DNA of 32,662 bases, from NCBI GenBank assembly GCA_021844425.1, contig JAKBTL010000110.1, positions 1 to 32,662 of the forward strand, read 5' to 3'. Shown here one piece after another: positions 3,961-8,326 of this stretch. Origin of the DNA: Actinomycetes bacterium. GTDB lineage: Bacteria > Actinomycetota > Acidimicrobiia > Acidimicrobiales > RAAP-2. The notes beneath the pieces were generated by a model. It made no database searches, was not told where the DNA came from, and worked only from the letters and a program-made list of their open reading frames with translations. The stretch's first letter is position 1; the number at the start of each line of letters is the position of its first letter. The translations under genes and the position numbers were made by a program.

Positions 3961-4030
3961 GAGGGCCGGGGACCCGCCGGCGAACGCGGCGGGCGGTGTT
4001 CGGCCAGGTCGTCTACATGGCCCCCGGCTC
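3961..4030 (+). promoter_or_regulatory. Candidate structured 5' leader RNA (three-way junction)
   Basis: Direct reading shows three nested pairings. P1 pairs 3963-3971 with 4022-4030 (GGGCCGGGG with CCCCGGCTC, nine pairs including one G-U). P2 is a perfect 7-bp hairpin, CCCGCCG at 3973-3979 with CGGCGGG at 3987-3993 and a 7-nt loop. P3 pairs GCCA at 4003-4006 with TGGC at 4018-4021. Only one base separates P1 and P2. The element would be the first 70 nt of a transcript from the TACAAT box. In DNA this GC-rich, chance pairing is common, and I cannot match it to a known riboswitch class. It could instead be only an mRNA leader with fortuitous folding. Confidence 0.35.
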
Positions 4031-4076
4031 GGTCGAGCAAGCGTCTCGGACCCGGGCGGGCAGCAAGGGAGTGGTC

Positions 4077-4286
4077 GTGAAGAAGGGACGCCATCGGCGA
4101 TTCGAAGAAGCGCGAAGCCTCAAACGTTCGGTCACCACCGCCGGGGAGCGGTGCCCCGAGTGCGGAGCCGAGCCCGAGGACGTGCACGCGTCGTGGTGCC
4201 TCGCCGAGGAGGACCAGTACGACCGCATACTCGGGTCGCTCGCGCCCTCGCACGAAGACCGGGAGCACGACCCGCTCGACGACTGA
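4077..4286 (+). CDS. Small zinc-ribbon-like protein (69 aa)
   Basis: I do not recognise a named family. From the GTG at 4077 the protein has 69 residues: a basic N-terminus (KKGRHRRFEEARSLKR), a CPEC knuckle (C26, C29) followed by H37 and C41 (HASWC), which together could bind one zinc ion, and an acidic C-terminal tail ending in DPLDD. Charge separation of this type suggests a nucleic-acid- or protein-binding adaptor, but this is inference. The start is chosen because AAGGGA at 4065-4070 lies 6 nt upstream; GTG at 4071 and a longer frame from 3996 are alternatives that would place the structured leader inside coding sequence. It converges on the cysteine-rich minus-strand gene with a 17-bp gap. 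Confidence 0.7.
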   Translation: MKKGRHRRFEEARSLKRSVTTAGERCPECGAEPEDVHASWCLAEEDQYDRILGSLAPSHEDREHDPLDD

Positions 4287-4303: not shown

Positions 4304-5050
4304 TCAGCCGCGGCGGCGCACGGCAGGATGGGGGAGGGGCGTCCGTGCACCGCGGCGACGGTCCTCGAGGTACGCCGCCAGCGCACGCTGCACCTTCTTG
4401 CCCGTCATCTCGGCCAGCTCGTCGGCCAGCTCTTCGTACACCGGCTTCGTGCCGACGAACGCGTGGCGCTCTTCGGTGCACCACCACGCGAACTCCTGGC
4501 CGCCCGGGCCCCAGTGGCGCCGCTCCCACTGCCCGACGGTAGAGGTGACGTGCCCATCGTCGTCGACTCGGTCCTCGCGCCGAAGCGGCAGCTGCCAGCA
4601 GACCTCCGGCTTCAAGTCGAGCGGGCGCCGGCCGGTCGAGAGCGCGGCGTGGTGCAGCGCGCAGCCTGGGCCGTTGCGGAAGCCGGGGCGGTTGAGGAAG
4701 ATGCATGCCCCGTCGACGAGGCGGGTCACCGTCTCGCCCCTCTTCGTGGTGCGCGTGATCCCCTTGCGCATCGCACGGCGGCGGAACTGCCAGTCCTCGT
4801 CGCCGAGAGATTCGGCCGCCTTCTCCACGCGGCGGACGTCGTCGTCGTCGACGAAGTGCGCTCCATAGGAGCAGCAGCCCTGCATGAGCTCGGGAGCTGG
4901 ATCGGTGAGGACGCCCCGGCAGCCGCGGCCGTAGATGCACGTCCAGCTGCTCGAGAGGAAGGTGATGTCGAAGACCCAGGTGCGGTCCTCGTCGGGGTCG
5001 TCGAAGCTCACCCACTCGTGCGCCGGCACGGAGGGCCGGCCGGTCGCCAT
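4304..5050 (-). CDS. Cysteine-rich protein, YkgJ/DUF3109-like
   Basis: The 248-residue product carries eight cysteines (C38, C44, C59, C60, C116, C130, C151, C191). The arrangement C-x5-C...GCCSYG, then GACIFLN...GCALHHAAL and LKPEVCWQLPL, resembles cysteine-rich families thought to bind zinc or an iron-sulfur cluster (YkgJ-type and DUF3109-type proteins); the ALH...KP..C..PL segment is the most telling. No enzymatic role is known to me. The ATG at 5050 begins 6 nt after a TAGGGT box, consistent with a leaderless transcript. It is divergent from nfuA with only 28 bp between starts, so a link to iron-sulfur or metal handling is plausible but unproven. The C-terminal 20 residues are arginine/proline-rich and look disordered. 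Confidence 0.75.
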   Translation of the reverse strand: MATGRPSVPAHEWVSFDDPDEDRTWVFDITFLSSSWTCIYGRGCRGVLTDPAPELMQGCCSYGAHFVDDDDVRRVEKAAESLGDEDWQFRRRAMRKGITRTTKRGETVTRLVDGACIFLNRPGFRNGPGCALHHAALSTGRRPLDLKPEVCWQLPLRREDRVDDDGHVTSTVGQWERRHWGPGGQEFAWWCTEERHAFVGTKPVYEELADELAEMTGKKVQRALAAYLEDRRRGARTPLPHPAVRRRG

Positions 5051-5056
5051 GGCCCG

Positions 5057-5062
5057 ACCCTA
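5057..5062 (-). promoter_or_regulatory. Candidate -10 box, leaderless promoter of the cysteine-rich gene
   Basis: Read on the minus strand, TAGGGT ends 6 nt before the ATG at 5050, so transcription would start at or next to the A of the start codon. It lies back to back with the nfuA box at 5067-5072, four bases away. Confidence 0.5.
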
Positions 5063-5066
5063 GCCG

Positions 5067-5072
5067 TAGAAT
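5067..5072 (+). promoter_or_regulatory. Candidate -10 box, leaderless promoter of nfuA
   Basis: TAGAAT ends 6 nt before the nfuA ATG at 5079. No Shine-Dalgarno sequence is present in the 28-bp divergent gap, which supports a leaderless mRNA. A -35 hexamer for this promoter would fall inside the start region of the divergent gene. Confidence 0.55.
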
Positions 5073-5078
5073 GGCGCG

Positions 5079-5717
5079 ATGGCTCGAACCGCTGAACAGC
5101 TCGACGTCGTGACGATCACGCCTGAGGCGCGTGACGTGGTGCGCGAGGCGATGTCCCAGGAACCCGACCCGGATCGTCTGGCGCTCTGGCTGGAGGTGCG
5201 CGGAGTCCAGGATGCCCAGTTCGTCTACGACCTCTACTTCCAGGCGGCCGCGGACGCCGCCGAAGAGGACTCGGTGGTCGATGACGGCGAGATCACCGTC
5301 GTCGTCCCGGAGCCGAGCGTCGACCGCCTGCGCGGTGCTCGGCTCGAGTGGAGCAGCGAGGGGGAGGGCGGGCTCGTCCTCGTGAACCCCAATGCGCCGG
5401 AGCCCGAGGAGCTCGGGGTTCCTGCCGAGGTCATGGCGGCGGGGCTCGACGGCCCGCTCGGGAGCCGGGTCCGCGCCGTGCTGGACCAGGCGGTGAACCC
5501 CTCGATCGCCTCGCACGGCGGCCGGGCCGACCTGGTCGCGATCGACGAGAGCGGGGGCGTCGCGTACCTGCGGCTCTCGGGGGGCTGCCAGGGCTGCGCG
5601 ATGTCCCGGATGACGCTCACCCAGGGCATCGAGGCCGCGCTGCGCGAAGAGGTGCCCGAGCTCACGCGGGTGGTCGACGTCACGGACCACGCGGGCGGCG
5701 ACAACCCCTACTACTAG
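5079..5717 (+). CDS. nfuA: NfuA-type Fe-S carrier protein
   Basis: The protein carries and delivers iron-sulfur clusters to apo-enzymes. Its 212 residues have the two-part NfuA plan. Residues 1 to about 110 form a degenerate A-type (IscA/HesB-like) domain without any cysteine (ITPEARDVVREAM, then LALWLEVRG and the acidic DDGEITVVV strand). Residues about 125-205 form the Nfu domain, where C170 and C173 of GGCQGCAMS bind a bridging cluster, preceded by NPSIASHGGRADLVAID. Loss of cysteines in the first domain is normal for NfuA. The ATG at 5079 is preferred over the ATG at 5071, which lies inside the -10 box. The next gene starts 7 nt after the stop. Confidence 0.93.
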   Translation: MARTAEQLDVVTITPEARDVVREAMSQEPDPDRLALWLEVRGVQDAQFVYDLYFQAAADAAEEDSVVDDGEITVVVPEPSVDRLRGARLEWSSEGEGGLVLVNPNAPEPEELGVPAEVMAAGLDGPLGSRVRAVLDQAVNPSIASHGGRADLVAIDESGGVAYLRLSGGCQGCAMSRMTLTQGIEAALREEVPELTRVVDVTDHAGGDNPYY

Positions 5718-5724
5718 TCGAGCG

Positions 5725-6510
5725 ATGACGGCCTGGGGGGTGGTGGCCGCGTGCGGGATCGGCGGGGGGGTGGCCGGTCCGTTCCTCGACGTGCTCGCGC
5801 GGCGGGTCCGGCGCCCGGACGCCCAGGGCCTCGCGCCTGGCGCCTCGACGTCTCGAGCGGCTGCGCCTCCCGCTGCACCCGCCACCTCTGCACCCGCCAC
5901 CGCTTCGCTTGCCACTTCGGTTGCGCCAGCTGTCGCGCGGGCGTCGAGACGCGCAGCCGTCGGCGAAGGCGGGGGCGTGGCGGTCCTGACCGCGGTGCTC
6001 TGCGTGCTCGGCGCGCTCCGGCTCGGGGCCGTCCCCCAGCTGGCCGCGTACTGCCTTCTCACGGGTGCCCTCGTCGTGGTCTCCCTCACCGACCTGCGCA
6101 CCGGCCTCGTCCCACGGCGGATCGTCTACGCCGCCGGCGCGACCGTCGGGGTCGCGCTCCTCTGCGCGTCCGCGGCCGACGGCACGTGGCGCCCGATGCT
6201 CGACGCGCTGGTGGGGGCCGCGGCCGGGCTGGCGCTGCTCGGGGGCATCTGGCTGGCGTCGCCCAAGGCGATGGGCTTCGGCGACGTGAGGCTCGCGGGG
6301 CTCTGCGGCGGCGCGCTGGGCTGGTTCGGCCTGTCAGCGCTCTACGTCGGCTTCATGGCCGCCTTCGTGGCCGGGGCGATCGTGGGCCTGGTCATGCTGG
6401 TCGCGCGCGGCCGGCACCGGCTCCCGTTCGCGCCCGCGCTCGCGCTCGGCACGCTGTTCGGCGTGCTTTGGGGCACGTGGCTCGGGAACCTCTGGCTGCA
6501 GAGGTGGTAG
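5725..6510 (+). CDS. Prepilin peptidase, A24 family
   Basis: An integral membrane aspartic protease that cleaves the leader of type IV pilin-like proteins at the inner membrane face. The two catalytic aspartates are visible: D123 in SLTDLRTGLVPRR and D187 in GFGDVRLAG. Several hydrophobic segments follow the pattern of the family. The N-terminal part starts with a short hydrophobic helix (GVVAACGIGGGVAGPFLDVLARRV) but then runs into an alanine/threonine/proline-rich linker at about residues 35-75, encoded in part by a 15-nt period repeat, where longer prepilin peptidases have a cysteine-bearing N-methyltransferase domain. Methylation activity is therefore doubtful. A prepilin peptidase also lies in the mycobacterial aroC region, which supports the call. 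No pilin genes are in the window. Confidence 0.88.
   Translation: MTAWGVVAACGIGGGVAGPFLDVLARRVRRPDAQGLAPGASTSRAAAPPAAPATSAPATASLATSVAPAVARASRRAAVGEGGGVAVLTAVLCVLGALRLGAVPQLAAYCLLTGALVVVSLTDLRTGLVPRRIVYAAGATVGVALLCASAADGTWRPMLDALVGAAAGLALLGGIWLASPKAMGFGDVRLAGLCGGALGWFGLSALYVGFMAAFVAGAIVGLVMLVARGRHRLPFAPALALGTLFGVLWGTWLGNLWLQRW
5874..5901. repeat. 13-bp direct repeat (period 15) in the peptidase linker
   Basis: TGCACCCGCCACC occurs at 5874-5886 and again at 5889-5901. The 15-nt period keeps the frame and yields the repeated APATS / APATA residues of the low-complexity linker. Confidence 0.85.
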
Positions 6511-6551
6511 ACGCCGACCGCCGCCTCGCCGACTACCTTCGCTCGGCTCGG

Positions 6552-6557
6552 TAGCGT
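6552..6557 (+). promoter_or_regulatory. Candidate -10 box, leaderless promoter of aroC
   Basis: TAGCGT ends 6 nt before the aroC GTG at 6564. The 53-bp gap after the peptidase stop has no Shine-Dalgarno sequence at a usable distance, so a leaderless start of the aro operon is plausible. Confidence 0.45.
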
Positions 6558-6563
6558 GGTGCG

Positions 6564-7757
6564 GTGCTCCGCTTCCTGACCGCTGGAGAGTCGCATGGAA
6601 AGGCGCTCGTCGTCGTGATCGAGGGCCTTCCTGCTGGGCTGCGGGTGACCGTCGAGGACGTCGCCGCAGAGCTTCGGCGTCGACGCCTTGGCTTCGGCCG
6701 CGGGCCCAGGATGCGCTTCGAGGCGGACGCGGTGACCATCGTCGGTGGGGTCCGCCACGGCAGGACGCTCGGCTCGCCGGTCGCGATCGAGATCGGGAAC
6801 ACCGAGTGGGAGCGCAAGTGGACCGAGGAGATGTCCCCTGCGCCCGGTGCGCCCTCGAGGGTCCTCACCCAGCCCCGCCCCGGCCATGCCGATCTCGCGG
6901 GGATGCAGAAGTACGGCTTCGACGACGCGCGCGACGTGCTGGAGCGCGCGTCTGCACGCGAGACGGCGGCCCGGGTCGCGGCAGGGGCGCTCGCGAAGCT
7001 CCTGCTCGCCCGCCTGGGGATCCAGGTGCTGAGCCACGTCGTCCAGCTCGGCCCTGAGCGTGTGGCCGAGGCCACGCGGCCGGTTCCCGAGGACCTCGAC
7101 CGCATCGACGAGTCGCCTGTGCGGACGGCGGACCCCGAGGCCGAGGAGCGGATGGTGGCGGCGGTGAAGTCCGCGGCGAAGGACGGGGACTCGCTCGGCG
7201 GCGTGGCCGAGGTCCTCGCCTACGGGGTGCCGGTCGGGCTGGGTAGCTACGCGCAGTGGGACCGCCGGCTCGACGGGCTTCTCGCACAGGCGCTGATGAG
7301 CATCCAGGCCGTGAAGGCGGTCGAGATCGGTGACGGCTGGGAGGTCGCGGCGCGCCGCGGCTCGGCGGCCCACGATGCCATCCGCCCCGACCCCGGTGCC
7401 AAGGCCTCGGGCGGGTACAGCCGCCCGACGACGCGGGCGGGCGGCATCGAAGGAGGCATGTCGAACGGGGACCTCGTCGTCCTGCGCGCGGCGATGAAGC
7501 CGCTCGCGACGTTGAGCCGTCCGGTCATTGAGACCGTGGACGTGGCCACGAAGCAGCCGACCGTCAGCTTCAAGGAGCGCACCGACGTCACCTCGGTGCC
7601 CGCGATGGGGGTCGTCGCCGAGACGATGACCGCGCTCGTGCTCGCCGCTGAAGCGCTGCGGAAGTTCGGCGGTGACTCGGTCGCGGAGCTCGTCCGCAAT
7701 CGCGACGGCTACCTCGCGTCGCTCGGCGAGACGCTGTCCCCGCCCGAGCGAGGGTGA
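6564..7757 (+). CDS. aroC: Chorismate synthase
   Basis: Catalyses the last shikimate step, the anti-1,4-elimination of phosphate from EPSP to give chorismate, with reduced FMN. The 397-residue product starts at GTG with [14 protein letters not shown], the invariant N-terminal signature, where H11 is the conserved catalytic histidine. Other family blocks are [29 protein letters not shown], the late [11 protein letters not shown] loop and VPAMGVVAE near the C-terminus. Length and N-terminus agree with the family, so the start is secure. It is the first gene of a tightly packed aroC-aroK-aroB-aroQ set and overlaps aroK by 4 nt (GTGA). Chorismate feeds aromatic amino acids, folate and the menD pathway at the left edge of the window. 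Confidence 0.97.
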
Positions 7758-8326
7758 TCGTGCACGTGCTGCGACCTGCCCCGCGCCGGGTGCTCCTCGT
7801 CGGGATGATGGGAGCCGGCAAGACGACGGTGGGCAAGCTGCTCGCTCGCCGTCTGGGCTGGCGTTACGTCGACTCCGACGAGGCGGTCGAGGCCGCCACG
7901 GGCCGTACGGTGAAGGAGCTGTTCGAGGCCGGGGGGGAGAAGGCCTTCCGCCCGCTCGAGAGCGAGGCGCTCGCTGCAGCGCTCGACGACGACCGTCCCG
8001 CGGTCGTGTCCGTCGCCGGCGGAGCGGTGCTCGACCCTGCCAACCGTCAGCTCCTGCGCCGGGCCGGCATGGTGGTGTGGCTGCGGGCGAGCCCCGAGAC
8101 CCTGCTCGAGCGCGTGCGCGCGGACACGAGCACGGCGCAGGCGCGCCCGGGCGTCGTCGACCACCGCCCCCTCCTCGATCGCGACCCGGCGGGCACGATC
8201 GTCCGGCTCGAGCGCGAGCGCCGGCCGATCTACGAAGAGGTGGCCGACGTGGCGGTCGACGTCGACGAGATCGGGCCCGAGGCCGTTGCAGATCAGGTGC
8301 TCGAGCTGGTCCAGGTCAGCGCGTGA
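7754..8326 (+). CDS. aroK: Shikimate kinase
   Basis: Phosphorylates shikimate at the 3-hydroxyl with ATP. The 190-residue product has a Walker A loop at residues 17-25 (GMMGAGKTT), the shikimate-binding DSDEAVE after the first strand, the conserved [14 protein letters not shown] segment, and a lid stretch around HRPLLDRDP. The glycine triplet that normally binds shikimate reads AGG (SVAGGAVLD), a mild deviation. GTG at 7754 overlaps the aroC stop, giving translational coupling. The family is usually 165-190 residues, so the length fits with a short N-terminal extension. Confidence 0.95.

Follow-up and report, generated by a model that had tools for sequence, protein, structure and literature searches.

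Leaderless promoters of Actinobacteria, as described in the sections of two studies on which we draw here, carry a TANNNT element about 12 bp upstream of the start codon and no conserved -35 (PMC3160421; PMC3898074), and the lack of a conserved -35 is described for M. tuberculosis in particular (PMC3898074). The same portion of the M. tuberculosis work describes close juxtaposition of divergent promoters as common, and includes prpD/Rv1129c, a divergent pair in which both genes are leaderless (PMC3898074). In E. coli, the bidirectional promoters defined by Warman et al. use a shared, symmetric -10 and fall into 18-, 10- and 23-bp classes, 18 bp being the commonest start-to-start distance; the excerpts of that paper used here exclude separate divergent promoters from the bidirectional class (PMC12825309).

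The window, by which we mean the whole 32,662-nt stretch of DNA analysed, is contig C60 of a 138-contig, 3.0-Mb genome and has a GC content of about 73%. It contains two divergent genes, one for a cysteine-rich protein of 248 aa (4304-5050, minus strand) and one for an nfuA-like Fe-S carrier of 212 aa (5079-5717, plus strand), separated by an intergenic gap of 28 bp (5051-5078). The predicted -10 of the cysteine-rich gene, TAGGGT (5057-5062, minus strand), lies 6 nt upstream of its ATG (5050-5048), and the predicted -10 of nfuA, TAGAAT (5067-5072, plus strand), lies 6 nt upstream of the ATG at 5079-5081; only a 4-bp spacer (5063-5066) separates the two boxes. The initial annotation had described these boxes, start codons, box separation and gap, and re-reading the sequence found all of them exact. 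An in-frame TAG opens each box and rules out an upstream start for either protein.

The nfuA product combines a degenerate A-type N-terminal domain with a C-terminal NifU domain containing CxxC. The NifU domain scores 78 bits, above its cut-off of 27, and the whole product scores 102.4 bits against TIGR03341 (the NfuA equivalog), below the curated cut-off of 269.35. Its named relatives come from Acidimicrobiaceae/Acidimicrobiales and from unclassified Actinomycetes MAGs, the nearest being 92% identical. Close downstream are genes for a prepilin-peptidase-like protein (A24), chorismate synthase and shikimate kinase (5725-8326, plus strand), which likely form one operon with nfuA, read from the nfuA promoter. 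Within this run a TANNNT-N6-GTG match at 6552-6566 (plus strand), directly before chorismate synthase (6564), is a possible internal leaderless promoter. On the other side, a small gene (3996-4286, plus strand) is convergent to the cysteine gene. Judging from its C-terminal end, it resembles the small genes, marked by a KKGRHRRFEEAR...CPEC motif, that adjoin the cysteine gene at four loci in relatives (L183, L185, L188 and L196).

We then compared the boxes with chance expectation. TANNNT-N6-RTG occurs five times in the window against 1.62 expected, a count reached in 0 of 100 shuffles; the N7 form is not enriched there (1 against 1.36 expected). In a 300-kb sample of the host genome, comprising 181 crude gene calls, TANNNT was found 12 times at 6 nt and 12 times at 7 nt upstream of candidate starts, while the majority of other spacings gave about 1 and spacings of 9, 10 and 12 nt gave 8, 4 and 4. 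The peaks at 6 and 7 nt indicate that leaderless promoters are a feature of the host genome. The two-sided pattern CAY-N6-ANNNTA-N0-30-TANNNT-N6-RTG, searched across the whole genome, occurs in two places, as does a reversed-pattern control, and we therefore reject a genome-wide class of two-box promoters. The case for paired promoters thus comes from conservation, the bare pattern alone being not above chance. The other two-box match in the genome (G000:C87:2945-2998; around 1501-1554 of L204) is a palindrome, TATCAGTCACTGATA, immediately upstream of a short antitoxin-like gene that is followed by a toxin-like gene (MazF-type by eye).

Among 100 relatives, the cysteine gene is present in 89 and an nfuA match in all 100. 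When equal freedom of start choice was allowed at every spacing, TANNNT stood 6, 7 or 8 nt before an in-frame start in 30, 21 and 21 of 99 distinct homologues of the cysteine gene and in 61, 45 and 6 of 119 distinct homologues of nfuA; for both genes, other spacings gave 0-7 each. Across 82 distinct divergent pairs, TANNNT stands before both genes in 63, before nfuA alone in 17, before the cysteine gene alone in one and before neither in one. The 73 distinct pairs with a gap below 200 bp, a count that sets aside L090 (broken reading frame) and keeps eight rows with inserts apart, comprise 61 with separate boxes, 10 with a shared -10 and two with no box on the cysteine side. The middle letters of the boxes differ freely (TAGGGT, TATCGT, TATGGT and TAAGGT on the cysteine side; TAGAAT, TACAAT, TAAGAT and TAGGAT on the nfuA side) and the T, A and T are invariant, which is the signature of a -10 element. 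The spacing peaks in the genome and in the homologues together give good support to the earlier proposal of leaderless promoters on both sides.

The initial annotation had also placed the upstream contacts of each promoter inside the opposite gene. This is correct by geometry, and a -35-like hexamer, TCGCCA (5044-5049, plus strand), does lie there, 17 bp upstream of the nfuA -10, where it overlaps the cysteine gene's start codon, but it is not conserved. A -35 hexamer showed no peak at the 17-bp spacing in any spacing class of the relatives, and we reject TCGCCA, which the relatives do not keep, as the -35 of nfuA; it is probably coincidental. No Shine-Dalgarno-like motif is kept in the clade that shares the tight packing, as judged by eye from the gap sequences. 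Both genes thus show the sequence attributes of leaderless genes: TANNNT 6-7 nt upstream of the start and neither a conserved -35 nor, by eye, a Shine-Dalgarno motif.

The distance between the boxes varies widely across the family. In all 12 genomes of the genus that have the pair, and in G019 from a neighbouring genus, the boxes are 4-10 bp apart (4 bp in the window, 5 bp in 11 rows and 10 bp in one), and the TANNNT of the cysteine gene is kept in all 13. These 13 rows form one clade with an SH-aLRT value of 99 in a quick tree, made without bootstrap, that used 68 of the 82 rows. Elsewhere in the family the boxes lie 26-36 bp apart at 38 loci (exactly 30 bp at 19 of them) and 46-108 bp apart at 10 loci; inserts of 1.1-2.3 kb part the two genes, as at L026, L069, L070 and L188, and in some genomes the genes are on different contigs. 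The initial annotation had named a long gap or non-adjacency in related genomes as evidence against its proposal, and the relatives do contain such cases, with distances to 108 bp and kilobase-scale inserts. Tight packing is therefore a local variation on a known theme and is not general in the family. No shared operator was seen in the spacer: at the 38 loci of 26-36 bp, its sequence is close to random, with a mean pairwise identity of 0.526 against 0.472 for shuffled sequences. At these loci (for example L060, L076 and L163) spacer length is conserved and sequence is not. In the 19 loci of exactly 30 bp, an ACC stands 5-3 bases upstream of the nfuA -10, with A and the first C in 19/19 and the second C in 17/19.

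All 10 shared -10 loci, nine from three genera (g4, g15 and g21) plus L106, have a gap of exactly 18 bp. The common box is TATGAT with the reverse reading CATCAT (TAACAT/TATGTT in L106), 6-7 nt from either start codon; the GTG starts of this class were picked with the box in view, and are in frame and open. In a 96-row nfuA tree (quick search, no bootstrap), in which other Acidimicrobiales served as outer rows, all 54 separate-box rows fall into one clade with a support of 100, and none of the shared -10 loci fall within it. The tight-packing rows require two changes in this nfuA-only tree, against one in the other tree. Since the outer rows are other Acidimicrobiales, the shared -10 appears to be the older state and the split form the newer, a polarity that depends on the root being placed outside the 54-row clade. 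Because the separate-box rows form a single clade, we favour reading the two boxes of the window as a bidirectional promoter that was once shared and has since split. On the lineage leading to this clade an ancestral single bidirectional -10 would have given way to two separate -10 boxes, and after the split the distance between them may have drifted, to 4-10 bp here and to about 30 bp or more elsewhere.

Some family genomes carry a second nfuA that faces away from an ATP-grasp gene, and downstream of the latter lies a radical-SAM gene that matches NF040546 (CUAEP/CCAEP-tail). NF040546 matches are found in 39 of the 100 relatives, above the cut-off in 20, and in the window's own genome there are none; a few of the radical-SAM matches contain an in-frame TGA, as a selenoprotein form would. 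Among 24 distinct loci pairing this second nfuA with the ATP-grasp gene, the ATP-grasp start lies 5 nt from an nfuA-directed TANNNT in 18 and at 4, 6 and 7 nt in one each, the remaining three having no such match. We therefore favour a leaderless ATP-grasp transcript made from the same -10 as that of nfuA. In three sister families (G087, G090 and G092) an operon of ATP-grasp, radical-SAM and cysteine genes is divergent from nfuA. The module of nfuA facing ATP-grasp (LAL_C2) and CUAEP-tail radical-SAM genes, in some cases with the cysteine gene, is seen with a conserved shared -10 at L183, L185 and L186 and at L213-L230.

The cysteine protein itself has eight cysteines that are invariant in 86 of 86 homologues and are also kept in nine diverged paralogues. 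We rejected selenocysteine in the one-stop paralogues (nine loci), where the only in-alignment stops are those at query residues 231 and 236, beyond the last of the eight cysteines, and every cysteine is kept. Its sole Pfam relative is DUF3109, which it matches weakly, with 17.3 bits against a gathering cut-off of 33.5; among aligned homologues, 23 of 34 match DUF3109 at E<=0.01, the best at 1.5e-05. An AlphaFold model of moderate confidence has a mean pLDDT of 79.9, and searches of the PDB found no match, the best structural hit having an E of 0.35 and the single sequence hit an E of 0.36. The protein probably binds metal or an Fe-S cluster. Literature searches for CUAEP and for DUF3109 found no papers.

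Within the family (G000-G060, 61 genomes), the cysteine gene is present in 56 genomes and absent from five. It is divergent from nfuA on one contig in 48 of the 56, at less than 200 bp in 45, and unlinked in eight; these counts were made by hand, and contig breaks may account for part of the unlinked eight. Of the order's 39 genomes outside the family (G061-G099), most carry the cysteine gene, and only in G080 is it directly beside nfuA. The functional link between the two proteins that the initial annotation had suggested thus receives moderate support, from the conserved divergent linkage and from the gene order of nfuA facing ATP-grasp, radical-SAM and cysteine genes in the sister families. 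Both proteins probably have roles in a related process linked to Fe-S clusters or metals, and this would account for their lasting adjacency; we hypothesize that the association of the cysteine gene with nfuA and a radical-SAM operon reflects an Fe-S carrier adjoining its client genes. A fuller history is more tentative, and we regard it as somewhat less than an even prospect: in this actinobacterial order a single bidirectional -10, lying at its tightest between start codons 18 bp apart, would have split once into two leaderless -10 boxes, their distance coming to rest near 5 or near 30 bp, and would all along have tied the Fe-S carrier to a putative client module made up of the eight-cysteine protein and, in the sister families, ATP-grasp and CUAEP-type radical-SAM proteins.

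Taking the sequence evidence as a whole, we consider it fairly likely that the window holds two separate, housekeeping-type (SigA-like) -10-only promoters set back to back and derived from a split shared -10, which would be nearly independent at low activity and would serve proteins of related roles. Each transcript would start at, or 1-2 bases from, its start codon (5050 and 5079), so that both mRNAs are predicted to be leaderless. An RNA polymerase footprint spans roughly -55 to +20, so two polymerases are predicted not to fit the gap together; this steric exclusion follows from geometry, as their footprints would overlap almost completely. At ordinary low activity both genes would probably be expressed nearly independently, and real interference would be expected only if one side were strongly activated. 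It is unlikely that the packing was selected as a true switch, with a polymerase on one side blocking the other and making expression of nfuA and the cysteine gene mutually exclusive, as the initial annotation had allowed. Boxes 4 bp apart within a 28-bp gap fit such a switch, as do the 4-10 bp distances kept in 13/13 clade rows, and E. coli bidirectional promoters can compete once one side is activated, according to the parts of the E. coli study cited here (PMC12825309). However, these two genes also occur with boxes as much as 108 bp apart and with inserts of 1.1-2.3 kb between them, and we see no activator site, for which 4 bp between the boxes would leave no room. Furthermore, in those parts of the study, none of the five E. 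coli promoters tested was active enough at basal level for competition to arise (PMC12825309). The same exclusion would hold for the 30-bp and shared forms, and given the lack of basal competition in E. coli, mutual exclusion is physically sound and, as a functional switch, hypothetical.

The remaining explanations we judge improbable. In one, the nfuA box TAGAATG, read in reverse, would act as a single -10 for both genes and give the cysteine mRNA an 11-nt leader. This architecture exists at the 10 shared loci of the same pair and in the nfuA2/ATP-grasp arrangement, and every TANNNT read in reverse gives xANNNT, but throughout the separate-box clade the cysteine start keeps 6-8 nt from its own TANNNT however far away the nfuA box lies, leaving this reading a slim chance. 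Equally slim is the chance of incidental boxes, with transcription of at least one gene beginning farther upstream, within the neighbouring gene, and its mRNA being translated with a leader. The failure of the pattern alone to exceed the genome control would be expected of incidental boxes; conservation of T, A and T at fixed spacing over dozens of diverged gaps would not, nor would the lack of a kept Shine-Dalgarno-like motif noted by eye.

Two back-to-back leaderless promoters are the preferred reading. Compared with the bidirectional promoters of Warman et al., as set out in the excerpts used here, the starts are likewise too close for two polymerases, and loci of the relatives show the 18-bp shared -10; in the window, in contrast, there is no overlap between the -10 boxes, and the 29 bp between the predicted starts matches none of the 18-, 10- and 23-bp classes (PMC12825309). 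The shared -10 form is seen at 10 loci of relatives and not in the window. The locus highlights an uncharacterised eight-cysteine protein that travels with an Fe-S carrier, and the pair, whose promoter spacing runs from shared through abutting and 30 bp to longer, offers a natural series for the rules of polymerase competition outside E. coli. Set beside the actinobacterial leaderless promoters, in the portions of those studies cited above, the promoters here are of the same kind, with TANNNT, no -35 and no predicted leader, and here two stand back to back (PMC3160421; PMC3898074). Closely set divergent leaderless promoters are already known, and this locus is another instance of them, accompanied by an evolutionary series of the same pair.
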